Assembly: GCA_024275575.1 (NCBI GenBank)
Contig: JAJRYV010000103.1
Location: 1-64,000, forward strand
Reading direction: 5' to 3'
DNA: 64,000 nt
DNA from: a bacterium
GTDB taxonomy: Bacteria; Zhuqueibacterota; Zhuqueibacteria; Zhuqueibacterales; Geothermadaptataceae
The notes under the pieces are model-generated. The model was not told the DNA's origin and made no database searches. It worked only from the letters and a program-made list of their open reading frames with translations. Position 1 is the first letter of the stretch. Each line of letters opens with the position of its first letter. Of this stretch, positions 49,570 through 64,000 are shown piece by piece. Position numbers and translations under genes: made by a program.

Positions 49570-52500
49570 TTATTTGAGGAACATCATTTTGCGTGTTTGC
49601 ACAAAAACCCGGCCGGAAACGCCGTGGGCTGTCAGTTTATAGAGGTAAACACCTGCAGCTACCGGCTGGCCGTCATCTGTGATACCGCGCCATTTTATAC
49701 GATATTGTGAGGCGCTCTGCAGTTGATCCACGGCATTATAAACCTGGCGGCCCGAGATATTGTAAATCTTCAGCGAAACCCAGGCTTGTTCAGGCAGGGC
49801 ATAATAGATTACCGTGGCCGGGTTGAACGGGTTGGGAAAGTTTTGCGAAAGCATAAATTCTTCGGGTAAACCGGAGAATATCTGCACGCCAACCGTAGCT
49901 CTAACCTCAACATTAATCCAGATTTCAATCTCCGGTTTTTGCGGATCGTTGGATTTTATCACGATCCTGGCGCCGGTTTTTGTTCCACCGCTCAGCGCCG
50001 TTGCATCTACATCGATCTGGATTTTTGCTGAGTCGCCGCTTGCGATAGTGCCGGTTTGCGGATCAAATGCCAACCAGTCGCTGGTGGTGTCCCTGAGCTC
50101 AATTTGCCACTCAAGTTCAGCATCACCGAGATTCCACAGCGTCAGTTCTTCTGAGAAGGTCGCCCCTTCGTCGATGGTGACAAAAATGCTATCATGATCC
50201 AACGAAACATCTGGCAGCCCCGCTACTGTGAAAGTAAATGGGATTAAAAAAATCATCGGTGGTTCGCTGGTTTGCAGCACATGAATCGTGTCCGAATAAA
50301 CGCCTACAGCAAGTCCGGCAGCATCAAAATTCAACAGGACTTCCTGTGATTGTCCGGGCGGCGTCGAGCCGGAGACCGGCTGTGCCGCAAGATAATCCTG
50401 CTGTTCTTGCACCAGCCATTGCACTTCACTCGTTCCAACAGATTTAATCATCAATTTTCGGGTAATCTTGCCTGCTACCGGCGCTTTTGCAATGATGTTA
50501 TTCGGTGAGACATCGATTCTGCCACCGGACACGCTTTCGATAACATTGACATAAACCGGGATAACGATATTGGGTTCGTCGGCGTCATTACTTTGCACCA
50601 TAACCACGCCTTCATGCTCACCGAGCGCAAGGGTGTCGGTCATCAATTGAACCAGCTTTGTCGTCGTTTGTCCCGGCGGCAGCGTTTGATTGCTCATATC
50701 GACAACAACCCATCTGGCGAAAAATGCGGTTTTCAGAGTGTAATTAAGCGGGCCAACTCCGATGTTTTGAATTGAAAGATCACGCGTGACATTGCTGCCC
50801 CGGGCAACTTCGGCCCGCAACGTATCCGGTGATACGACAATTTCAGGCGCATTGCCGCCGCCGGAGCCTTGCTCGACGATGAGCGAGATGGCCACTTTCC
50901 ACAAGTCATTATTAGCGTCATTCGAAGTGATGGTCAGCGTATCCGAGAAACTGCCGACCTGCATATCGATGGCCGACAGAACGACGCGCATCGTGTCGTC
51001 TTTGCCGGGTTGCACAGAACCCTCAAGATGGTCCGGCTGCACCCACGGCTCATTTTTCGTCGCATTCCAGGTGAGCAGGCCGTTCCCCCAGTTGCTGATG
51101 ATAACCCAGTGTTCCATTGTTTCGCCCTGTTTGAGGCGGCTGCCGAGATTATCCTGCGAGACGAACATTTGCGGATATTTTTCATTGATCGTCATATAGG
51201 CTTTGACGAGAAATGACGGTGTGGTCGGATCATTTGACAGCACATACATGGAATCGAGATAAGCGCCGGGCGCCACTCCTTCAGTCTTATAAACAATGAA
51301 AAAATCGATCGATTGCCCGGGTGCCAGTGATCCGCTGCTCACCGTCGGGTAAACCCAGCTCGCATTCCAGCTCAGCGACCATTGCAGTGCTGCATTGCCA
51401 TTGTTCAAAATGGAAATCGGGTGCGAGGTCGTATCTCCCGGGTCAAGTGTTGATGACAAATTATCCTGCGAGACGCTGATTTGTGGTGTTTCCTGCGTCG
51501 TTTGCATGCGTACGGCTATTTTAACCAGTGGAAAATTGGAGGCATTTGTCACCAGTTGCATCGTATCCACAACCGCTTCAATACCCAGACCGGTGGAGTT
51601 GACCATGATTGAGACTGTATCCGAAGCGCCGGGCGCCACCGTACCGGATTGCGGCGAAGCAGATAACCAACCCGCATTCCAGGACAAATTCCAGTTCAGC
51701 GCACCGCTGCCCTGATTGCCGATAATCAGCGGCATGGTGATACTGTCGCCCAGTGAGACCGTGGTTGAGAAATTGTCGCTATTGATGCTCAGAGAAGCAT
51801 AGCTTTGATTGACATGGAGCTCAACGGGAATATCAAACGTTGGATGGCTCGGATCGTTGGTGGCAATCGAAACTGTATCGCGGTGTGTTTCTGCAGAAAG
51901 GCCGGCGGTTTTCAGCCAGAAGTAGAGTGTTTCCTGCTGGCTGACAGCGACGGAGCCGGAGCTTGCCACCGGCACAATCCAGCTTACCGGCGTGCTCATC
52001 GACCAGGTCAGGGTTTCGGTGCCGACGCTGCTGAGCGTGACGGAGACTTTCAGGCTATCACCGGAGAGCAGCGTCTCGGAAATGGAGCGTGGCTGTAAAT
52101 CGGCCGCCGGCCCCGGCCCGATGACCGTGAAAACAACCGGGATGATCAGCGGGGTGTTGGTGCTGTCGTTGCTGTTGATGGAAACTTCCGCGTTGTAAAT
52201 TCCGGGGGAAAGGCTGGCCGCCATCAACTGTACGTCGATTTGCTGCGACTCACCGACGGCCAATTGGCCACTCTTCGGCATCGCACTCAACCAGGTTTTG
52301 TCGGCAGGTGTCTCGCTGCTCCAGGTCAATATCCCGTGCCCGCTATTTGATATACTGAACGATTCGGCAACCTGGTTGCCGGTGACGGTCTGCGTTTTGA
52401 TGGAATCGACAGAGGCAGCGATTTTGGGCGTTTTGGTTACGGTGAATTGAACAGGTATTTTAATCGCCGCCTGGATGCCGTTGCTGTTTGAAAGCGTGAG

Positions 52501-55500
52501 CGTGTCGACATAAATTTGTGCTGTTAAAGCCGTTGCGCTGAAAGTGAGTACGATATTTTCGCTGGTTAGAGGCTGTATCGTATTCATTGTGGCGCTCGCT
52601 GAAAGCCAGCTTGCATTCCAGCTCAGCGTCCAGTACGTCACCAGGTTGCCGCTGTTTTCGATGGTTAAATCGAAAGTTGTTGATTCTTCGATTTCAGCGC
52701 TGGTTTCAATTGAACTGGTATTTACCGCGAGAACGCCTTCGTTGATGCCGGCCCGAACGCAATTCGAGAATTCACTGGTATTCCATGCCGGATCAGAGGC
52801 CGTGGCCGAAATAAATTTTCCGGCTTCCACCGTTTTTGTCAGCGTCGTGTTGATCACGGCATTGCCGCTGGCGTCCGTTGTTACTTCCATGGCGTCGAGA
52901 TAAGTTTGTCCCTCACCGTAACCGGAGGGATCACAGGTATCGCTAACGAAAAATTCGATGCGGAAAACGGTGTTGGGCGTGCTATTCAATGTTCCGTTGA
53001 TCTGTACTTCACCGGCAATCGCGGAGGTCAGTTCCGGTGCATTCTGAAAGTTGTTCACACCGGTATCCGTATCCTGGTCATCATTACCATTAACCGAATC
53101 GTCAAAGCCGAGATCGATACCCAGCCCATTGGCATTATTATAAATGGAATTGCTCCAGATTTTTATGCCGGTGCCGGCATCACCAAAGAGCATGATACCG
53201 CCGTCTTTGTTGTTAGCGATGGTGTTAGCTTCGCCGGCGCCGGCGCCGCCGATCGCGAGCTGATTGGCATTGTCTTTAATCCACATGCCGGCACCACCGT
53301 TGCCGAGATCGAGAGTGCCACTGGTATCGGTGCCGATAAAATTGCCCTGGATAAAATTACGCGGCCCCTGATCGACCCAAATACCGATATCGTTGTTGCC
53401 GCTGACGACATTGCCGTAACCCGGACGGCCGAAATAGTTGCCCTCGGCGCCCATACTAATCGTGGCGCCGTTGCCGTTGCCGACTTTTCCGCTGCCGTCC
53501 GCTGTCACCCCGATATAATTGTTGAGCACTTGGTTGTCGCTGGTGCCGGCGCCCTCAATTTGTACGCCCTGTGAATTATTACCGGAAAGAAGATTGCGCG
53601 CTTTGATGTTGGCGCCGCCGATGGTATTGTATTGCGCCGCATCCTGAATGGTGACACCCGCCGCCCACTGATCGAGCTTCGTCGTGCCGTTCAAATCCGT
53701 GCCGATGTAGTTGCCTTCGATGCGATTATAAGCGGCGTCCGGCCCTTTGATGCGTACCCCGCCGAGAATCAGATTTCGCCCGGCTGCAGTGGTATCGCCG
53801 ATCAAATTATAAGAAGAAGATTCCAGGCGTACGCCGTCATTTGCCGAGGTCATATTGGTCAATCCATCACCGCTGACGTTGAGAAACATACCCTGCACAA
53901 CATTGCTGTCGCTGTGATAAAAATGTAGTGCATCGCCCTGCTGGCCGTAAATTGCCAGCCCTTTTAACGTATTATGACTGGCCTCAAAAGTAATACCATT
54001 GGCACCGGAAAAATTGAGGGCAATACCGTATTGTGTATTGATCGGCTCGCCGAATGGCGCCGTATTGGGGCTGGAACCGGGCTGGGTAAAACCATTGATG
54101 TTCACTGAATAATAGGAAGAGGGCACGCTTGAACTCAAATTGAGAATTTGCAGACCGCTTTGGGGAATATTAAAAGTGATGTTATACGTCGAATCTGCAT
54201 ACCATGGCGGACGGTTGTTTGATTCTTCGAGAGCAGCCCGAAAACTGCAAAGCCCGGAGGAAGTCTTGCATATGCCGTCTCCCATGTCTGCATCTTGCTG
54301 ATTGCCAGTGCCTGTGATTTCAAAGCCATAGACTTCCAGCTTGTTAAACCGGATGGGAATGCGCACGAGGTCGCGGTCATAGGTGCCCTCGGTGATATGC
54401 CAGCGGGTGAAATATAAATAGGCTTCCCGCCCGGTGATTTCGAAATTGCGTGAGGTATCGGCATGATCGACAATAGTCGGATAAGCGATAATATCTTCCG
54501 CATTCGAGTGTTTGGGATTGATCAGCAAGTTGGCGGCCATGATTTTCTTACGCACGGTCCAGTGAATTAAATCCTCAGAAACTGAATAGTAAATACCCCA
54601 GGTGCTACCCTTCGCCGTCGCCCCGACGATCATCCATTTATTAAAATATGTATTCCAGGTTAAATTCATCGTCATTTTGGCCAGCGCGCCATTGGTAGCA
54701 ATCGGCGCTGCGATATGATCGGCCGGATCAAAACCGGTATTATTTTCCGGGTCGATAAACTGCACGGTGAAACCCGTACCATCCCAGGCGCGCCAACTCG
54801 TGGGGTCGCTTAAATCCTGGGTGCGCATCAGCCCGACGCCCACTTCCTGCAACCCGCGTGCCTCAAGGTGCAGCAGGTTGTAATAGTAACCGTCGCCGGG
54901 ATTATAAACGATATTGCTGCCTCCGAAAATACCCGAGGGGCCAACATCCGGTTCATAGGGATAGGGGATAGTGGCAACAAAATGACCCGGCGCCACAGCG
55001 TGGGTATAAGTTCGCCCGGTATCGGTTGAGGTGGCGTAGGTCAGGCCGTTGTACCAGCATTTCATATAATCTCCCGAGGGGCAGGAGACAAAGTCGGTAT
55101 TTGCCGCACCATGAAATTCGTTATGGATGATGGCATGGATGGTTTTTCCATCGGTCGTATAAGTGCTGACGATCCACTCGTGATCATCCCATTTTGCCGG
55201 GTCGTGATTTTTATGTGAGGTCATAATCGGCCCGTTGGCGCAATCGCGTACCAGGGAGTTAAAATCATCGCCGATCATGCGGTAATTGGTATAGTGCGGC
55301 GCAATGAGCTGGATTTTCCCATCGGCATCGCGGAAAAAACGCGCCGGCGCATCGGGAATATCGATTTGCTCGCAGCTATCCGCCGCCCAGTCGAAAACGA
55401 TCTCTTCGGCGCCAAGAATATCGACATCGCCAGGGTAAATCAGTTGAGCGTAAAGCGGTGCTGCCATGCTTATCAGGAAAAACAGAAATGATGCCTTGAC

Positions 55501-55524
55501 ATAAAAACGGAAAGTAGATGACAT
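49570..55524 (-). CDS. Giant T9SS-secreted protein: beta-propeller-like region, beta-helix, nine Ig-like repeats
   Basis: About 1,984 residues. Signal peptide (FLFFLISMAAPLYAQ), then a ~380-residue region with glycosidase/sialidase-propeller character (HEWIVSTYTTDGKT, WTVRKKIM). Next is a CSLREA-like motif (CKTSSGLCSFRAALEESN) leading into a beta-helix with repeated NYIGTD and NTIGG turns. Nine ~100-residue Ig/BACON-like repeats follow, each with a WL/WV strand, SGS-x-PG turn, Y-x-DTL and SND. The C-terminus is a T9SS type A domain (SQNFPNPFNPATVIYYALPE). GGAG precedes ATG at 55524; an upstream ATG at 55584 lacks one. Family knowledge places it at the cell surface; the ligand is unknown. Confidence 0.9.
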   Translation of the reverse strand: MSSTFRFYVKASFLFFLISMAAPLYAQLIYPGDVDILGAEEIVFDWAADSCEQIDIPDAPARFFRDADGKIQLIAPHYTNYRMIGDDFNSLVRDCANGPIMTSHKNHDPAKWDDHEWIVSTYTTDGKTIHAIIHNEFHGAANTDFVSCPSGDYMKCWYNGLTYATSTDTGRTYTHAVAPGHFVATIPYPYEPDVGPSGIFGGSNIVYNPGDGYYYNLLHLEARGLQEVGVGLMRTQDLSDPTSWRAWDGTGFTVQFIDPENNTGFDPADHIAAPIATNGALAKMTMNLTWNTYFNKWMIVGATAKGSTWGIYYSVSEDLIHWTVRKKIMAANLLINPKHSNAEDIIAYPTIVDHADTSRNFEITGREAYLYFTRWHITEGTYDRDLVRIPIRFNKLEVYGFEITGTGNQQDADMGDGICKTSSGLCSFRAALEESNNRPPWYADSTYNITFNIPQSGLQILNLSSSVPSSYYSVNINGFTQPGSSPNTAPFGEPINTQYGIALNFSGANGITFEASHNTLKGLAIYGQQGDALHFYHSDSNVVQGMFLNVSGDGLTNMTSANDGVRLESSSYNLIGDTTAAGRNLILGGVRIKGPDAAYNRIEGNYIGTDLNGTTKLDQWAAGVTIQDAAQYNTIGGANIKARNLLSGNNSQGVQIEGAGTSDNQVLNNYIGVTADGSGKVGNGNGATISMGAEGNYFGRPGYGNVVSGNNDIGIWVDQGPRNFIQGNFIGTDTSGTLDLGNGGAGMWIKDNANQLAIGGAGAGEANTIANNKDGGIMLFGDAGTGIKIWSNSIYNNANGLGIDLGFDDSVNGNDDQDTDTGVNNFQNAPELTSAIAGEVQINGTLNSTPNTVFRIEFFVSDTCDPSGYGEGQTYLDAMEVTTDASGNAVINTTLTKTVEAGKFISATASDPAWNTSEFSNCVRAGINEGVLAVNTSSIETSAEIEESTTFDLTIENSGNLVTYWTLSWNASWLSASATMNTIQPLTSENIVLTFSATALTAQIYVDTLTLSNSNGIQAAIKIPVQFTVTKTPKIAASVDSIKTQTVTGNQVAESFSISNSGHGILTWSSETPADKTWLSAMPKSGQLAVGESQQIDVQLMAASLSPGIYNAEVSINSNDSTNTPLIIPVVFTVIGPGPAADLQPRSISETLLSGDSLKVSVTLSSVGTETLTWSMSTPVSWIVPVASSGSVAVSQQETLYFWLKTAGLSAETHRDTVSIATNDPSHPTFDIPVELHVNQSYASLSINSDNFSTTVSLGDSITMPLIIGNQGSGALNWNLSWNAGWLSASPQSGTVAPGASDTVSIMVNSTGLGIEAVVDTMQLVTNASNFPLVKIAVRMQTTQETPQISVSQDNLSSTLDPGDTTSHPISILNNGNAALQWSLSWNASWVYPTVSSGSLAPGQSIDFFIVYKTEGVAPGAYLDSMYVLSNDPTTPSFLVKAYMTINEKYPQMFVSQDNLGSRLKQGETMEHWVIISNWGNGLLTWNATKNEPWVQPDHLEGSVQPGKDDTMRVVLSAIDMQVGSFSDTLTITSNDANNDLWKVAISLIVEQGSGGGNAPEIVVSPDTLRAEVARGSNVTRDLSIQNIGVGPLNYTLKTAFFARWVVVDMSNQTLPPGQTTTKLVQLMTDTLALGEHEGVVMVQSNDADEPNIVIPVYVNVIESVSGGRIDVSPNNIIAKAPVAGKITRKLMIKSVGTSEVQWLVQEQQDYLAAQPVSGSTPPGQSQEVLLNFDAAGLAVGVYSDTIHVLQTSEPPMIFLIPFTFTVAGLPDVSLDHDSIFVTIDEGATFSEELTLWNLGDAELEWQIELRDTTSDWLAFDPQTGTIASGDSAKIQIDVDATALSGGTKTGARIVIKSNDPQKPEIEIWINVEVRATVGVQIFSGLPEEFMLSQNFPNPFNPATVIYYALPEQAWVSLKIYNISGRQVYNAVDQLQSASQYRIKWRGITDDGQPVAAGVYLYKLTAHGVSGRVFVQTRKMMFLK

Positions 55525-55959
55525 GAGAAACTCCGTAATGGTGTTTGAGAATATTTTAGCCGATTCCTGATCATCGGCTATCATGCATCAATCTCAAAGA
55601 TTTCGAATAAAATGAAACGAGATTTAGTGAAGTGTAACCAACAATACGCCAGGCATGATTAAAGCGACAGGCAGCGCGGAATAAATGTAACGAAACATAC
55701 AAAATTAAATTATGGGGCCGTTGGGGTTTTGGCTTGCCTTTAAAACCGGAATTTGGTACTTTTCGGCGGCTGGAAAGGGGATCGCCATTCTCAAATGAGA
55801 ATCCACCCGGTTAACAAGATTCTTGTTTTCCCTTTGCGCAACAGCACCTCCCTGATAAATTTTTACTCAGTAAAATCTTCCCAGCGTCTGTTGTCAATCG
55901 AGTCCTTTGTCAGATTTTCGAAAAACCATAGGTGAAATTTTTGAAAATGAGGTGAGATT
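55525..55959. other. Divergent intergenic region
   Basis: No gene is supported between the divergent giant protein and caspase genes. A 60-codon frame at 55753-55935 has no similarity and no good ribosome site. Promoters for both neighbours must be here but no clear boxes were found. Confidence 0.4.
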
Positions 55960-58548
55960 ATGAAAACCCGACGTTTGCGCACAATCAGCGGCAGTATTTT
56001 TTTTCTGAGTTTATTCATCTGTGTGAATTCCGTACTCCCACAAAACCGCTATTCCACAACACAAACGATCCCTGGCGTTTATGGCGGGTTTGCCATGAAC
56101 AGCATTCAAATGGCAAGCGCACAGCAAAAAACGACGGATTCAAAATACCGGATGAGCATTACCGGATTGACCCTGTCAAGCGCTTCTTCCGTTATCGGCT
56201 GGAATTTGAATATTTTCCGCGCCTTCTCTTTCGATGAATCCGTTTATAATGAAAAAAACATCCATCTCGTGAGCTGGGCGGAAGCCGGTATCAATCTGCC
56301 CCTTTACCGTCGCTGGGGCAATAGCGGATTTTTTTCCCGCTTTGTGCTCATGTTGTCCGCCAATGTCAGCCTGTTCAACGAACTTTATTTGCGCAATGAT
56401 TCGGAACTTGTGGCGTATCAAACCAGCGATGACTCGCGCTATTTCAAAGAAGAATATCCGCGCTATATCGATTTCGGTCTCGAATTCCGGCGGAAATGGT
56501 TCAATTTCAAAATCGGCTATTTGAAGCAGACGAAAGACTACCAGGCTGAGAATGCGCTGTTTTCAGCAGTGCCGCAAAACTTGACCGGCTCTTATTTTGA
56601 AGCCGGTTTTACCCTGGGCGGCTGGAATAAAAAAGTGAGAAGAATAAACCCCACAGCCCCCGGCCTGGGAAAAATCGACTTCCGGCTTGCCTATGAGGAC
56701 CCGTCAAAAAACAACGCACTCGATTCCGGCGAAACCGGCGCGATTCTGGTCAAGTTGAAAAACAAGGGCAAAGGCAGCGCCAGCGATATTGCTGTCGATG
56801 TTTTTCCCTCCGAGGGCGATGATAAAGAGATTTCCATCAAACGGACGACCCGCTTGTACACCGATTTATACGCCGGTGAAATAAACACGGTGCGTATTCC
56901 CATCACAGCTTCAAAAAATATCGAAAACGGTTTTGTTAAATTCAAAGTCGTGGTGCGCGGCACTAACTTCAAAACCATGACCCGGGATATTCGTGTCAAT
57001 TTACACAAACAAATCACCCCGGCTGATATCATCGCCTCAGCCGAATTTGCAGACACCAATGATGATGGTATTCTTTCCGAGGGTGAAAAAGGATGGCTCG
57101 TCTTTCGTCTCGAAAACTATGGTGAATGGGTTGCCCGCAATGTGCACATCACCAGCGAGCTCGTTTCCGGGCGCCGTCCGGGTTTTAAATTTGAAAATGA
57201 AATAAAAATTCCTGCGCTCGTACCGAATGCTGTTAAAAATATTCGCCTGCCCATTACCTACAAATCACCGCTCAAACCCGGTGAGGTGCGAATCAAATGC
57301 ACGATTTTCAGTGAAAATATTACCCCCATCAAGCGCGAAATCGTGTTTATTGCTGCCCATCCACAACCGGTTTTGCTTTCGATCGCTGCAATGCTGCAAG
57401 AACCATCCGGCGATGAACTGCTCGGTGGCGGAGAATCGGGTAATATTTTGCTGCAAGTGAAAAATGAAAGCATGACACGTGCTGAAAATGTCAGCATCGA
57501 CGTCAATTTTGCCAGCGAATATTTTTCAACAATTCACTTCAAAGAGCATGTGCGCGCGGGAACCATCCTGCCGGGAACGACCAAAGAGGTGGCTATCCCC
57601 GTAAGGGCTGAGGAGAATGCCGAAGATGGCCGGGTCGATTTAAAATTGCAAATATCTGCCGACAACATCATTTCGTTCAGCGAGGTCTACACCGTACTCG
57701 TTAAAGAACTTGACAATGTCGATGATCCCATCGTTGCCCGCATTGAAAAAAAAGAGGCTATTGCCGTGGTTATCGGTATTTCCAAATACTTCAACAGCAG
57801 CGTTGCTGAGGTGAAATATGCCCAGCATGATGCCGCCATAATGCGTGAATATCTCAAGAGTTCCCTCGGCTTCAAAGCGAAAAATATCTACCCGAAAGAA
57901 ATCAACAGCCTGATGTATACCAAAGGATTTCTCTCTACACTGTTCAAACACCGCTTGCCCAAGTTGGTGCGTCCTGGCGAAACCGAGGTATTTATCTACT
58001 ATTCCGGGCATGGCGCACCTTCAACGGAAGCACAAAAAGCCTTCCTCGTTCCCAGCGATTGTGACCCGGAATTTGTCAACGCAAGCAACGCTTATGCACT
58101 CGATGAATTTTATGCCGATCTGTTTAATCTGCAGGCCAAACACCTCACCGTCGTGCTGGATGCCTGTTTCAGTGGTTACGATGGTTCGGGTAGATCATTG
58201 CTTACAAACCAAAGCTCTCTAGCACTTAAAGTTAAAGACCCATTTCTTGCAAGCTCGAATTCTGTTCTTTTTTCTTCCTGTCGCATGGACGAGGTGGCAA
58301 ACTGGTATCCGGATAAGAAACACGGCCTGTTCACTTATTTCTTTCTCAAAGGACTGCGCGGCAGAGCTGATTTCGACGGCGACCGCCTGGTCACTGTGGC
58401 GGAGTTGACACAATTCCTCACCGATGAGTCATCCGGGTTGAATGCCAAATCACTAAAGTTGTTCAACCGTTCACAACATCCGCAAATCAGGTCGCTGAAT
58501 CCGGATCGAATTCTCGCAGATTACAAGCGTGTCGTGACGACCAAATAG
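55960..58548 (+). CDS. Exported membrane-type protein with Ig-like repeats and C-terminal caspase (C14) domain
   Basis: 862 residues with signal peptide (FFLSLFICVNSVLPQ). Residues about 35-230 look like an outer-membrane beta-barrel (alternating amphipathic strands such as FSRFVLMLSANVSLFNELYL and YFEAGFTLGGW). Next are three CARDB-like segments, each starting with D-x-n-LDSGE or ILSEGEKG. The caspase domain runs from about 600: AIAVVIGISKYFNS, histidine in IYYSGHGAP (near 683) and cysteine in TVVLDACFSGYDG (near 736), both catalytic residues intact, then SSCRMDEVANW. GAGGTGAG precedes ATG at 55960. Domain order suggests a surface- or periplasm-facing protease anchored in the outer membrane; that topology is inference. 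The partner gene downstream carries DUF4384. Confidence 0.85.
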   Translation: MKTRRLRTISGSIFFLSLFICVNSVLPQNRYSTTQTIPGVYGGFAMNSIQMASAQQKTTDSKYRMSITGLTLSSASSVIGWNLNIFRAFSFDESVYNEKNIHLVSWAEAGINLPLYRRWGNSGFFSRFVLMLSANVSLFNELYLRNDSELVAYQTSDDSRYFKEEYPRYIDFGLEFRRKWFNFKIGYLKQTKDYQAENALFSAVPQNLTGSYFEAGFTLGGWNKKVRRINPTAPGLGKIDFRLAYEDPSKNNALDSGETGAILVKLKNKGKGSASDIAVDVFPSEGDDKEISIKRTTRLYTDLYAGEINTVRIPITASKNIENGFVKFKVVVRGTNFKTMTRDIRVNLHKQITPADIIASAEFADTNDDGILSEGEKGWLVFRLENYGEWVARNVHITSELVSGRRPGFKFENEIKIPALVPNAVKNIRLPITYKSPLKPGEVRIKCTIFSENITPIKREIVFIAAHPQPVLLSIAAMLQEPSGDELLGGGESGNILLQVKNESMTRAENVSIDVNFASEYFSTIHFKEHVRAGTILPGTTKEVAIPVRAEENAEDGRVDLKLQISADNIISFSEVYTVLVKELDNVDDPIVARIEKKEAIAVVIGISKYFNSSVAEVKYAQHDAAIMREYLKSSLGFKAKNIYPKEINSLMYTKGFLSTLFKHRLPKLVRPGETEVFIYYSGHGAPSTEAQKAFLVPSDCDPEFVNASNAYALDEFYADLFNLQAKHLTVVLDACFSGYDGSGRSLLTNQSSLALKVKDPFLASSNSVLFSSCRMDEVANWYPDKKHGLFTYFFLKGLRGRADFDGDRLVTVAELTQFLTDESSGLNAKSLKLFNRSQHPQIRSLNPDRILADYKRVVTTK

Positions 58549-58671
58549 GGCATTTCGCCGAATCGCAAGGAGCCCGGTTGATATTTCTCAATACCGGGCA
58601 AGCGTAATTTTGATTGATTGCATTGTTGTTAGCGATGAAATCAAATAAAAAACCTAACTCCCGGAAACACG

Positions 58672-59577
58672 ATGAGAAAAACTTTTATGCTCTTCATTTT
58701 CTGTCATCCCTGTCTTCTGGCGCAAACGATGCAAACCGGATTGCCTGAATCTCCCGCGGTAACGGCAGGGGGTGAAAAATTCAAAGAGGTTATTGCCGAA
58801 GGCATGGCGCTGACACGAAACCGCACTATCGCAGCTGCCTTTACATTGGCCAAACAGCGGGCGCGTGCGGCGGGCATACAAAAAGCCGTTGGTATTCAGG
58901 TGCATTCGGAAAAATTTCGGCGCATATCCGAAACGATCGCCAACAAAAAATCCATTTTGACTGATTATTTTACCAATATCAATCGTGAAGTTTCTTACGG
59001 GCAAATCGTTGAGGAAGAAATGCTGAGCGATACTTTAATCAAGTCAGATATCGACACCTCAATGCCTGAATTTTTTATCAGGGTAAGAATGCGTTTGAAA
59101 GTCGCCACTGAAACCATGCATCCTGATCCGGGCTTTGAGCTGAATGTTAGCACGATACCGGAAGGACGGTTCTTAAAAGAGAAAGATGAGCTGAAATTCA
59201 AAATAAGCACGACGAGGGATTGTTGGCTGTATATTTTCAATTTATTATCGAACGACAGCCTCGTCGTGCTTTTCCCCAATATTTACACACAAAATAATTT
59301 CCTGCCGGCCGGCCGGAGTATCGAACTGATGCCGCCGGGTTTTGCCTTCGTAGCAACGCTGCCGCCCGGTTTGCAGCAAGTGCAGGAGGTGGTTTTTATC
59401 GTTGCGACGAAACGACGTATCAACCTGCCCTTTTATCATCGAAATCAAGTCTCGGATTTCAGTCAATTCTCGCTGGAAAAATTTGCCTATATCGAGTTGC
59501 CGAAATGGCTGGTAAAAATTCGCCCGGATGAACGAACGACCTTTACTTTTGACTACACGGTTTATGCAGTAAAATAA
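58672..59577 (+). CDS. Exported FlgT/LPP20-like plus DUF4384 protein, caspase partner
   Basis: 301 residues with a short signal peptide ending LLAQ. The N-terminal half (AAAFTLAKQRARAAGIQKAV, MPEFFIRVRMRLKV) has the alpha/beta layout of LPP20/FlgT-N domains. The C-terminal half is DUF4384: LKFKISTTRDCWLYIFNLL, DSLVVLFPNIYTQNNFL and LQQVQEVVFIVATK. DUF4384 is repeatedly found with caspase (C14) domains, in the same protein or next to it. It lies 123 bases after the caspase gene on the same strand, so a functional pair is likely. The mechanism is unknown. Confidence 0.82.
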   Translation: MRKTFMLFIFCHPCLLAQTMQTGLPESPAVTAGGEKFKEVIAEGMALTRNRTIAAAFTLAKQRARAAGIQKAVGIQVHSEKFRRISETIANKKSILTDYFTNINREVSYGQIVEEEMLSDTLIKSDIDTSMPEFFIRVRMRLKVATETMHPDPGFELNVSTIPEGRFLKEKDELKFKISTTRDCWLYIFNLLSNDSLVVLFPNIYTQNNFLPAGRSIELMPPGFAFVATLPPGLQQVQEVVFIVATKRRINLPFYHRNQVSDFSQFSLEKFAYIELPKWLVKIRPDERTTFTFDYTVYAVK

Positions 59578-59639
59578 TCCCTATAAGCCAACTTGAAATC
59601 CATCCGGCACCCCACGCCGCAAAGGCCGGGTTACCTCCA

Positions 59640-59760
59640 CAGCAGTGGGCGCGCCAGATATTTGAATTCATCCCCGGTTTTCAAAACAAATCTTTTCGCG
59701 GTCATCGGCAGGCCCAGCCCATGAGTTCCCCCCGGACCCATCGACCGTCATTTTGATAAA
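59640..59760 (-). pseudogene. Possible histidine-kinase ATPase remnant
   Basis: Read on the minus strand, IKMTVDGSGG in one frame continues after a one-base shift as THGLGLPMTAKRFVLKTGDE, reminiscent of the DxGxG and GLGL boxes of HATPase domains. No start and no other domains remain. The rest of the gap 59578-60011 shows nothing. Chance similarity cannot be excluded. Confidence 0.25.
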
Positions 59761-60011
59761 AGCAAGCAATATACCGTTTTGCTGATTAAGGGCGTTTTTA
59801 TCTCTGCAGCCTGTTTTGAGTTAAAAAAATTTCCTTTGCTCTCGCAAAAATGAAGTCGCCGGTCAATTGTGTTGGGAAATTGCCACAAAATGGATTTCGG
59901 TTGTCGTCATTTTGCAACAATCACCAATTTTTGTTGGCAGCGTCTCGCGGGAAATATATGCAGGTAAAAACGGCTCTGAGTATCCATTTAAACCAGTGCA
60001 TCGTACATGCA

Positions 60012-60647
60012 TCACCCCTCTGTTTTTTCCATAATTTTATAGAGGTAGGAACGGTCGAGGCCGAGCAATTCCGCTGTCTTGCTCATGTTGCCATCGCATT
60101 CTTCCAGGGCCGATTGGATATAGCATTGTTCAAACGTCCGCCGGGCTTCACGCAAGGTGGCCCTGTTTGAATTTGAGACGACATCGGTTTCAAAATGCAA
60201 AGCGAACATGGTGATACGCACAGTGATTTTATCGGCTGGAGAAAGAATCGCATCGGTGAATGCGTCGACGATATAAACGCCACACGGCTGATAGGCATGA
60301 CCGGTTTGCACGAGCATAACCAGATCGCCCCGACTGTCGCCGTTTATATCCAGCGAGCCGATTGCAGTCGCTTTGGTGAACCAGACATGACCGTTATTGA
60401 ATTCTTTTTTTAAGCAGAAAAAATGAACTTGTCGACTGTCCCCGGCTGGTGTAAAGATGAATGAAAAGCGAATCACCCAACTGCGCAAAGATTGATGATC
60501 GCCGAGTATACCAAGGCAGGTTAACTCGTTAGAGCCGTTAAAATTGATCTGTGCTGCTATGCCCTGTGTGTTTGGATTGCGAATGACAAAATTGTTAGGA
60601 TCGCCGGCGCTAATGCTCGGGTTCGTACTCATCCGTATTAAAATCAT
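60012..60647 (-). CDS. FG-GAP/VCBS-like segment fused to a Fis-type DNA-binding domain
   Basis: 211 residues. The C-terminal 50 (LREARRTFEQCYIQSALEEC then GNMSKTAELLGLDRSYLYKI) are a Fis-type helix-turn-helix as at the end of NtrC-family activators. The N-terminal part contains AIGSLDINGDSRGDLVML, a calcium-loop motif of FG-GAP/VCBS beta-propellers, with flanking strands. No AAA+ domain is present, so it cannot act as a sigma-54 activator alone. It is divergent from the PorV-like gene. The frame is unbroken, so the fusion looks real, though a decayed regulator is possible. ATG at 60647 and 60632 are both possible. Confidence 0.6.
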   Translation of the reverse strand: MILIRMSTNPSISAGDPNNFVIRNPNTQGIAAQINFNGSNELTCLGILGDHQSLRSWVIRFSFIFTPAGDSRQVHFFCLKKEFNNGHVWFTKATAIGSLDINGDSRGDLVMLVQTGHAYQPCGVYIVDAFTDAILSPADKITVRITMFALHFETDVVSNSNRATLREARRTFEQCYIQSALEECDGNMSKTAELLGLDRSYLYKIMEKTEG

Positions 60648-60750
60648 GCAACATTTACCTGTCGGCGCCCTGTCGAGGTTAATCTCTACAAGGCAAAGGC
60701 GATATTATGCATAGACTAAGGAGTTGATTCTAACAATCCGGAGCTGCATC

Positions 60751-62322
60751 ATGACCCGACAACGAATACTCATTTGCCTTTTTTTATTATTCAGCAGCCG
60801 CCTGCCGGCGCAAGAAGACATCACCATGGCCTATTTTCACGGGGGTAATTTTAAAGTCCGTTTTGGACTTTCATCCAGCTTGCTCAGCGGCATCGGTGCG
60901 CGCAATGCCGGACTCGGCGGCGTCATCAGCGGTTTTCACAGCGATGTTTCCTCTATTATTCATCATCCGGCAGCCTTGGCCGGCTTCAATCGACCGGTTA
61001 TGGCTATCGATTTCACCCCTTCCGGCCTGATAAGCCCGAATAATTTTGCCGATGTCGATGCCGGCGTCTCCTCCAATGTCGACGAAGCGCTGGTGGATTA
61101 TGCTATCCCACAGGAGAATCTCACCTATCCCGGCCTGGATATCGCTTTCGGGCAATCCGGGCTTGCCGGTTCCGGTGGTTTAGTTATGCCGACAAATTAC
61201 GGTCAAATCGGTTTTGCCGTCTACCGGCCGCTATCGCTCAAACTTGATGTTGTCGGTTCCGGATTTTCGACGATGATCGAAACACGCAAAGCCATCGGTG
61301 ATGCGGTGACCGTAGTGCAATTTGCCACTACGATGAGCGCGTCAGTTGAATTTTTTCTCGATACCCGCGCCACCAGTTTTAGCTATGCCCGGGCGTTGTC
61401 GCCCAAATTCTCCGTCGGCGCGGCGCTGGACTGGTTCGATTCACACATCAATCTCGACGCTAATTTTAACATTGAAGGCATTATGCTTTTGCGCCAGGAA
61501 GGTGCCGCTTCCGGCCAGGAATACGTGTTCAACGATCCCTATGACGAGAGCATTCGCACTGAAGATGGTGAGCAAAACAGCCTCAATCAGTGGGCGCGTG
61601 GCGGTTTCGACGGCTCGGGCTGGGGGTTCAAATTTTCAACTATTTATCTGCCTTTTCGCTGGCTCTCCATAGATGCCGCGATCAGCCTGCCGCAAACCAT
61701 AACAATGCGCGGTGGCCTCGAATTTGTGCAAAATACAATGCCGGCGCTCAACGCTGAAAATCTGTTTTCGGACAATGAAAACGATGCCATTTTTGATGTG
61801 ACAAAACTGAGCCTGGCAAAACCAACAGAGACCGAGAGATTTATCAACCCGGGCGCTTCATCGATGACTTTGAAAATGCCCGGCTCTCTCGTTTTTGGCG
61901 CCGGCGTGCGGTTGGGCGCTCGTACGCTCATCGCTGCAAATTTCACCCGATATATTGGTGAGCTCTCATACCAGTATCGCGATTATTTGCAGGGATTAAA
62001 ATTCAAACAAGGCATGCGTTTTGGCGCGTCGTTCCCCTTTGCCTGGTTTTTGAGTCCGGAAACAGCATTGTTGAAGCTGCTCGGTATCAAACCATTTCCC
62101 CGGCTGCGTTTGGGCGGCGGGATTATTTTTGCTGATGAAATCAAAAGTGGATTTAGCTATCAGAAAAAAAACCCGGGGCTGACCTATGCTCAAACCGGTG
62201 TGCTCATCCCTGCATTTTCACTCGGCAAAAGCATGCAATTGTATCCCGGCATCGAAATGGACCTGTTGATTTTCAGTGTTCCGGTCAGTGCCTTTAAAAT
62301 GTCTTTTCATTATCAGTTTTGA
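60751..62322 (+). CDS. PorV/FadL-like outer-membrane beta-barrel protein
   Basis: 523 residues with signal peptide (ILICLFLLFSSRLPAQ), the near-N-terminal GARNAGLGGVISGFHSDVS that resembles the GARAAGMGGA-type opening of PorV/PorQ proteins of T9SS, HHPAALAGF, many amphipathic strands and a final phenylalanine (MSFHYQF) typical for barrel assembly. PorV shuttles T9SS cargo; FadL-type channels move hydrophobic substrates. Which applies here is unclear, but T9SS cargo genes flank it on both sides. ATG at 60751 has GGAG eight bases before it. Confidence 0.8.
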   Translation: MTRQRILICLFLLFSSRLPAQEDITMAYFHGGNFKVRFGLSSSLLSGIGARNAGLGGVISGFHSDVSSIIHHPAALAGFNRPVMAIDFTPSGLISPNNFADVDAGVSSNVDEALVDYAIPQENLTYPGLDIAFGQSGLAGSGGLVMPTNYGQIGFAVYRPLSLKLDVVGSGFSTMIETRKAIGDAVTVVQFATTMSASVEFFLDTRATSFSYARALSPKFSVGAALDWFDSHINLDANFNIEGIMLLRQEGAASGQEYVFNDPYDESIRTEDGEQNSLNQWARGGFDGSGWGFKFSTIYLPFRWLSIDAAISLPQTITMRGGLEFVQNTMPALNAENLFSDNENDAIFDVTKLSLAKPTETERFINPGASSMTLKMPGSLVFGAGVRLGARTLIAANFTRYIGELSYQYRDYLQGLKFKQGMRFGASFPFAWFLSPETALLKLLGIKPFPRLRLGGGIIFADEIKSGFSYQKKNPGLTYAQTGVLIPAFSLGKSMQLYPGIEMDLLIFSVPVSAFKMSFHYQF

Positions 62323-62373: not shown

Positions 62374-64000
62374 ATGAATTTAAAACCAGGTTTTAAAAAT
62401 ATATTGCTGCTGGGGTTTTTATTACCGGCCATTTTACCGGGCGCCGAAAAACTCTCCGTCATCCGCCGGCCAATTATCAACCTGCCCGCGATCGTACAGC
62501 CGGCACAATCATTCGACATCATTTGTGAAGCGCCGAAGAACACTCTCGCCTGGACGGCGTTGTTAATTACGCCGGGAAAAGCAGAAAATCTCACTATCAG
62601 CTCGAGTACTTTTGATGCAGCAAGCGGCCGCTGGACGTTGTCTGCCGAAGTCCCGGCAGGCGCCGGGGCCGCCTTTTACGATCTCATCATCGCGGCAGGC
62701 GGCGGCATTGCCGATACCAGCGCCAATGCGGTCAAAGTTATCGATTCGCCCAAAACCAGCTACACCGTGATACATATCTCCGATACCCATTTTGACCGTC
62801 GCGCCAACATCGATTATAACACGGTGCCGGAATTTTTAAAAATCGCCCGGGAAATCAATCTCATCAATCCGGAGTTCGTGCTGCATAGCGGCGATCTCGT
62901 CGATGAGGCCACACTCGAGCGCTATTATGAAGTGGCGCAGGAGGCTCTCAATACGCTGGAAGTGCCAATCTGGGTCGCCCCGGGCGGCAGTGATGTGGAA
63001 ATTTTCCAAAGCAATTCGCAGGATACACAGTACTGGAACGCATATTTTGGTGATATTATGGATTTCAGTTTCCGTTACGGTAACCATCTTTTTGCCGGGC
63101 TGCAGGAGTGGGAATTCCCGGGTGAAAGTTTTAGCCGGGCACAGCTCGACTGGCTCGGCGGTGAATACGGTGCGCAGGATGCCATGCGGGTATTATTTTA
63201 CCACTACGATCTGCAAAACCAGCTCGATGCTGCTTATGCCGATGCGAACGCCATCGATCTTTTGCTCTACGGCCATCTCAACAAAAACCGCGACGAAACC
63301 ATCGGCAGCGGCACGCGCAATATCGGCACAGCCGCAACGATGCACGGCGGTTACGGGCAATATACTTACAGCGGCGAATATCGCATTCTGCAGTTCGAAA
63401 ATGATCAATTGATCGATACTGAAGTCATTCAATACAATAATCTCAATCTCAGCTACAGCCCTGTGAACAACGGCAGCAACCCCGAAATTTATGCTGAAAT
63501 CGAAAATAAACTGTTACGAAATTTCTCCGGCGCTCGTCTGCGTTTTTATGTGCCGGAAAGTTACAGCCCATACACGGTGAGCAATGGAACACTGGTGGAA
63601 GAGAGGGCGACCGGCACTGGCGTGGCGATCGTCATCGTGGAGACGGATCTGATCGCCAACAGCAATAAAACGGTGCATCTCGAACCGGCTGCCGGGCTGG
63701 CAAATCATCCACCACGCATTGCGACGACTTCCCCCGAACAGACCTATTCAATCACCGTCGGGCAAACGCAAAGTTTTAGCGCAACAGCGATCGATGACGA
63801 TAACGATCAACTGGCTTTTTCGTGGAAAATCAACGACGTCGATGATAGCGAAACCAGCGGCACGCTGGCTTTTACCGCCAACAGCACCCATATTGGGTTG
63901 AACACCATCGAAGTGACGGTTTCCGACGGCACCTTTGCCGATATTTACCAGTGGACGGTCACAGTCGTAGAATTGTCCTCGGATTATGCCATCATCGCGC
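62374..64000 (+). CDS. Exported metallophosphoesterase-like protein with Ig/PKD domain (3' truncated by window)
   Basis: The frame starts at ATG 62374 after an AGGAGA box and stays open to the window end (542 codons seen). Signal peptide ILLLGFLLPAILPGAE, an N-terminal beta domain, then a calcineurin-type phosphoesterase: HISDTHFD (D-x-H), VLHSGDLVDE (GD), FYHYD and LLLYGHLNKN (GH). The GNH(D/E) motif reads PGGSDVE and the terminal GHxH lacks its second histidine, so some metal ligands are lost. An Ig/PKD-like domain (SFSATAIDDDNDQLAFSWKI) follows, close to the one in the first gene of the window. A T9SS domain may lie beyond base 64000. Confidence 0.82.
   Translation, partial: MNLKPGFKNILLLGFLLPAILPGAEKLSVIRRPIINLPAIVQPAQSFDIICEAPKNTLAWTALLITPGKAENLTISSSTFDAASGRWTLSAEVPAGAGAAFYDLIIAAGGGIADTSANAVKVIDSPKTSYTVIHISDTHFDRRANIDYNTVPEFLKIAREINLINPEFVLHSGDLVDEATLERYYEVAQEALNTLEVPIWVAPGGSDVEIFQSNSQDTQYWNAYFGDIMDFSFRYGNHLFAGLQEWEFPGESFSRAQLDWLGGEYGAQDAMRVLFYHYDLQNQLDAAYADANAIDLLLYGHLNKNRDETIGSGTRNIGTAATMHGGYGQYTYSGEYRILQFENDQLIDTEVIQYNNLNLSYSPVNNGSNPEIYAEIENKLLRNFSGARLRFYVPESYSPYTVSNGTLVEERATGTGVAIVIVETDLIANSNKTVHLEPAAGLANHPPRIATTSPEQTYSITVGQTQSFSATAIDDDNDQLAFSWKINDVDDSETSGTLAFTANSTHIGLNTIEVTVSDGTFADIYQWTVTVVELSSDYAIIA

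Follow-up and report, generated by a model that had tools for sequence, protein, structure and literature searches.

In the window analysed here, a 64,000-nucleotide stretch of contig JAJRYV010000103.1 from a bacterium of the Zhuqueibacterota (assembly GCA_024275575.1), a gene for an exported caspase, P0001, is followed by a gene for an exported DUF4384 protein, P0002. Gene order and sequence indicate that the caspase and DUF4384 genes are a true pair, which constitutes a two-gene envelope module in very different bacterial phyla. We put the probability at roughly one half that the window holds one instance of a widespread two-gene periplasmic sensing-and-execution module that serves in envelope stress or conflict rather than in the processing of type IX secretion system (T9SS) cargo. 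The features of the pair are as follows, with lengths in amino acids (aa).

55960..58548, + strand: exported caspase P0001 (862 aa), from Pfam C14 and CARDB matches and a structure model.
55960..56041, + strand: signal peptide of P0001 (MKTRRLRTISGSIFFLSLFICVNSVLP), from the sequence and a helix at residues 4-19 in the model; close relatives likewise.
56062..56664, + strand: P0001 residues ~35-235, a putative 8-stranded outer-membrane barrel, from a model and Foldseek.
56674..57705, + strand: three immunoglobulin (Ig)/CARDB-like domains of P0001 (~239-347, 357-466 and 473-582), from a CARDB match and the model.
57748..58521, + strand: caspase domain of P0001 (residues 597-854), with H684, C736, D624, D734 and an EF-hand-like loop D804-E815.
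58672..59577, + strand: exported DUF4384 protein P0002 (301 aa), with a signal peptide, a ~120-aa N-terminal region and DUF4384 at residues 169-238.

In P0001 a Sec signal peptide is followed by an N-terminal region of ~200 aa, then by three Ig/CARDB-like domains and lastly by a C14 domain. Peptidase_C14 matched residues 601-846 (E = 5.9e-13; 49.5 bits, curated cut-off 21.4), and the 4.96-Mb genome gave no C14 match other than P0001. The initial annotation had described an intact caspase His/Cys pair behind CARDB-like repeats, and both parts of this description are supported. H684 (YYSGHG) and C736 (DACFSG) are invariant across 34 aligned relatives, CARDB matched residues 250-336 (E = 2.9e-5), and the full-length model resolved three Ig-like domains and a caspase domain with a predicted local distance difference test score (pLDDT) mostly >85. 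Export of P0001, which had also been proposed, is evident from its signal peptide. Of 93 relatives in the same caspase branch, 69 have a signal peptide by a simple rule, and several of the others are truncated or visibly bear one. Sequence therefore indicates that nearly all caspases of this branch are exported, and because of the 69 relatives with a called signal peptide export is not unusual for the branch. Being exported, P0001 is unlike the cytoplasmic caspases that work with STAND, gasdermin or CRISPR partners, as the initial annotation had pointed out. No STAND, gasdermin, EACC1 or Cas partner was found beside P0001 among the window neighbours. PADLOC assigned P0001 to a generic caspase model only, and the EACC1-associated caspase model scored 59, below its cut-off of 140.

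The DUF4384 gene had been noted as the next gene and its family as a recurrent caspase partner, and our data agree with both statements. DUF4384 (PF14326) was detected in P0002 at E = 2.3e-12 (47.3 bits, curated cut-off 27). The two genes are separated by 123 bp, in which no terminator-like site was detected. The genes are adjacent in 9 of the 11 same-phylum genomes with a P0001-type caspase, the window included; the other loci of this phylum in which a DUF4384 gene adjoins the caspase gene are L032, L033, L035, L036, L037, G071, G073 and G076. In one of the two exceptions, G037, the caspase sits on a 4.3-kb contig. For a multi-phylum sample, contigs from one genome per species were scanned with a caspase alignment, which yielded 80 loci from many phyla; an earlier scan of the collection with a single protein as query had given no matches. 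DUF4384 occurs in 40 of these 80 loci, within three genes of the caspase in 37, and directly adjacent to it in 26, compared with ~9 expected at random. Caspase and DUF4384 genes lie on the same strand in all loci examined (43/43), and the gaps between them are often 0 to -23 bp, that is, near zero or overlapping. The pair was also found in Desulfobacterota and Nitrospirota. In cyanobacteria, DUF4384 is fused to caspases according to passages in two reports (PMC7475262, PMC8283722), and by analogy direct contact between P0001 and P0002 is therefore likely.

Two acidic residues and one loop of the caspase domain give clues to its activity. In the 34-sequence alignment D734 is invariant and D624 is at least 90% conserved, and they match by position Asp211 and Asp95 of TbMC2, in which two Asp in the pocket accept basic residues (PMC6426788). 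The conservation of this acidic P1 pocket therefore predicts that P0001 cleaves after Arg/Lys. Residues 804-815 form an EF-hand-like loop, D-x-D-G-D-x-x-V-T-x-x-E. The strict pattern is present in 59 of the 93 relatives and a relaxed one in 87; for the strict pattern, shuffling gave an expectation of 0.01. The top PDB sequence matches of the caspase domain were to EF-hand proteins and covered this loop, with E values short of significance. The loop suggests Ca2+ gating of the P0001 caspase.

The N-terminal region of P0001 (residues ~35-235) has one relative only, in G008 (L032), at 43% identity, and no further homologue was found in 82 genomes. The initial annotation had placed a barrel at residues 35-230. 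A model from the two-sequence alignment agrees with this in having about eight long strands, and in Foldseek its top matches were 8-stranded outer-membrane barrels, with OmpA at rank 1 and Ail and NspA among the other outer-membrane proteins. Its confidence is low (pLDDT 45), the smallest Foldseek E value was 0.015, and in the full-length model the region was left unresolved with pLDDT <50. A PDB sequence search with the region gave no match, and no significant similarity was found to the separate outer-membrane barrel protein of the module. The strand-alternation statistic (z = 1.4-1.7) is suggestive only, and the Ig domains score higher. An 8-stranded outer-membrane barrel at the N-terminus is thus plausible from modelling, though tentative. 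In OmpA-type topology an even-stranded barrel has both ends in the periplasm. If the barrel is real, the caspase would therefore be periplasmic and not exposed on the surface, probably on the inward-facing side of the outer membrane. Barrels are joined to caspases elsewhere as well. A caspase of the same phylum (L040, 7006-9573) combines a T9SS-type PorP_SprF barrel (E = 1.7e-15) with Ig-like and C14 domains, which by its domain matches is an independent barrel-caspase fusion. In WOR-3 (L119:9302-11578), a different barrel-like N-terminus, recognised by inspection only, precedes CARDB and caspase domains.

The N-terminal half of P0002 may resemble outer-membrane accessory proteins of the FlgT/FlgP/LPP20 class. 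It gave weak matches to FlgP-like PDB entries (E = 0.22-0.59), FlgT_N was matched in two relatives at E = 0.12-0.14, and hhalign to LPP20 gave E = 0.004 with a probability of 8%. Proteins of this class are also encoded near related pairs. The recurrent neighbours of related caspases include FGE-sulfatase-fold proteins (20 loci), LPP20 lipoproteins (9 loci) and a protein with only sub-threshold transglutaminase-like matches (7 loci); OMP_b-brl and CsgG/FlgO proteins are among the envelope partners. Behind the pair in L032 come LPP20 and FlgO/CsgG genes, and the pair of L036 and L037 has a barrel gene, LPP20 and other envelope genes beside it. Contig C82 of the window genome (L152:6835-11808) carries an operon for a TPR-CsgG/FlgO protein, OMP_b-brl, a 516-aa protein of no assigned family, LPP20 and an LPP20-like protein. 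Downstream of the caspase in L036 and L037 the genes are syntenic with this operon, which itself has no linked caspase. Directly downstream of the C82 operon, type III CRISPR Cas10/Cmr2-like and RAMP genes were observed (L152:13256-15702).

A reverse transcriptase was found near the caspase in 8 of 90 loci. Five loci (L077, L079, L088, L091 and L095) contain genuine diversity-generating retroelements (DGRs) beside exported caspases, and the mismatches between template and variable repeats are nearly all at adenine (21/22, 18/18, 18/18, 15/16 and 18/20). In these loci the variable repeat lies at the end of a gene for an FGE-sulfatase protein (C-type-lectin fold) that bears a signal peptide, and DUF4384 is present in four of the five. 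The company of the pair, either LPP20 and CsgG-FlgO or DGR-diversified lectins, points to a periplasmic sensing-and-cleavage system.

Two further genes next to the pair had been counted as members of the same cluster.

60012..60647, - strand: P0003, a remnant in which parts of an FG-GAP histidine kinase and of an NtrC-type response regulator are fused; its two halves match neighbouring genes in G001.
60724..62322, + strand: P0004, a PorV-like outer-membrane protein in the conserved flank, with a 75% identical orthologue in G001 that adjoins the same flanking genes and lacks the caspase pair beside it.

P0003 had been described as an FG-GAP/Fis regulator. Its HTH_8 is genuine (E = 4.7e-11), but its FG-GAP match is sub-threshold. 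In the sister genome G001, its N-terminal part matches a 740-aa FG-GAP histidine kinase at residues 74-205, and its C-terminal part matches the neighbouring 451-aa NtrC-type regulator at residues 369-445; there the two are separate adjoining genes (L175, 3062-6688). A dedicated regulator was therefore rejected in favour of a chimaera left by deletion and fusion of the two genes. P0004 matched NCBIfam PorV_fam at E = 6.3e-6, and at 26 bits this is under the cut-off of 90; the gene was assigned to the flanking conserved segment. In G001 (L174, 13350-13753), the PorV-like gene and a divergent giant gene (58% identity) are 404 bp apart, and the caspase, DUF4384 and Fis open reading frames that lie in window 55585-60723 are all absent. 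These reading frames therefore occupy a segment that is missing between the same flanks in the sister species. Six further genomes from the same family were tested and have no P0001-type caspase, and in related genomes the pair does not travel with the PorV-like gene. On the grounds of the related loci and the empty site, the four-gene cluster was rejected; conservation of the neighbourhood fails for four genes and holds for the caspase and DUF4384 genes. Giant exported proteins are encoded at window 49570-55584 and 62374-64000 (continuing into L043 to 17870); they bear HYDIN/BACON/Ig repeats or a metallophosphoesterase domain, and the one at 49570-55584 has T9SS-type C-terminal sorting signatures.

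We infer the anchoring, the Ca2+ gating, the specificity and the purpose of the module as follows. In the lineage of the window, the N-terminal 8-stranded barrel would anchor P0001 to the outer membrane, and the three Ig-like domains would hold the protease in the periplasm. P0002 may dock to the caspase or regulate it. An envelope signal, such as Ca2+ entry, membrane damage or a bound ligand, would activate P0001, which would then cut periplasmic proteins after Arg/Lys. A wider generalization is tentative and in our estimate rather improbable, namely that there is a widespread class of extracytoplasmic systems for periplasmic recognition and execution. In these, an exported Ca2+-gated caspase and an exported DUF4384 partner would be held at the outer membrane through barrels or lipoproteins, and some lineages would couple them to exported lectin-fold receptors diversified by DGRs. 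Several points weigh against the sensing-and-execution module. Pairwise distances of P0001-type caspases and of DUF4384 proteins correlate across 45 pairs (r = 0.53, where permutation reached at most 0.24), which speaks for the pair, but this correlation also reflects shared species history. About half of the sampled caspase loci have no nearby DUF4384, so the partner is not obligatory. The kinship of the P0002 N-terminus with FlgP/LPP20 is weak and below significance, and the barrel model is of low confidence and based on a single homologue.

A housekeeping role, in which the caspase matures or quality-controls outer-membrane lipoprotein complexes of the CsgG/FlgO/LPP20 type and the DUF4384 protein serves as its adaptor or substrate, seems doubtful. 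The envelope genes beside the pair in L032, L036 and L037 and the syntenic operon on C82 speak for such a role, but that operon lacks a linked caspase, and the sporadic distribution of the pair, missing in the six family genomes and at the empty site, fits accessory systems better. LPP20 and FlgO/CsgG homologues recall the flagellar proteins FlgO, FlgP (LPP20) and FlgT, but the recovered neighbours of the pair are not flagellar. T9SS cargo processing, which had been suggested initially along with surface-triggered proteolysis, is very unlikely. PorU and the gingipains resemble caspases and are cysteine peptidases (family C25) located in the outer membrane or at the surface; PorU, which has a caspase fold, processes T9SS cargo. 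The window genome also encodes SprA and the giant proteins with T9SS-type C-termini, and one PorP_SprF-caspase fusion exists in the phylum. P0001, in contrast, is a C14 protein that matches no T9SS sorting domain (no Por_Secre_tail, CHU_C or FlgD_ig match at E ≤ 1), and on this ground it was rejected as T9SS cargo. The PorV-like gene is an independent flank, and the pair occurs in Desulfobacterota and Nitrospirota, which are not known for T9SS. Proteolysis at the surface is improbable too, as an even-stranded barrel would leave the C-terminal domains in the periplasm.

Extracytoplasmic defence or kin recognition, with the caspase as effector of a variable recognition protein, is also unlikely for the window, although it gains from the five loci in which DGRs diversify exported FGE/C-type-lectin proteins, mostly together with DUF4384. 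DGR-linked conflict systems with caspase effectors have been described (PMC10907252, PMC7159879), and some relatives of the module share with them a DGR-diversified lectin-fold protein beside the caspase. In the module no STAND or MoxR NTPase was seen, and caspase, DUF4384 protein and lectin all have signal peptides. Neither an FGE gene nor a DGR is present at the window locus, and reverse transcriptases are confined to the small fraction of loci given above.

The proposed periplasmic sensing-and-execution module can be compared with known caspases. It shares with orthocaspases and prokaryotic metacaspases (MEROPS C14, MaOC1-like) the p20 fold, the His-Cys dyad and the acidic pocket that predicts Arg/Lys cleavage (PMC6426788). 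It differs from them in export, the Ig/CARDB spacers, the putative barrel and the exported DUF4384 partner. The cyanobacterial orthocaspase-DUF4384 fusions contain the same domain families, and the passages that link DUF4384 and caspases concern domains within one polypeptide; the window pair consists of two separate exported proteins and is found in many other phyla. Possible extracellular caspase homologues were noted in 2012 (PMC3501461). Exported prokaryotic caspases have thus been noticed before, and DUF4384 is known as a domain fused to some caspases. In the literature searched, neither the exported two-gene pair nor its breadth, nor a link with LPP20/CsgG operons or DGR-diversified exported lectins, was found described. 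The occurrence of the pair in very different phyla suggests a widespread, largely undescribed class of envelope caspase systems.

Functional work on bacterial caspases has so far centred on cytoplasmic enzymes. An exported pair conserved in many phyla offers a role that can be tested for DUF4384, whose function is unknown, and brings caspase biology into the cell envelope. Exported lectins diversified by DGRs in such loci hint that variable, extracytoplasmic targets may be recognised by some of the systems.

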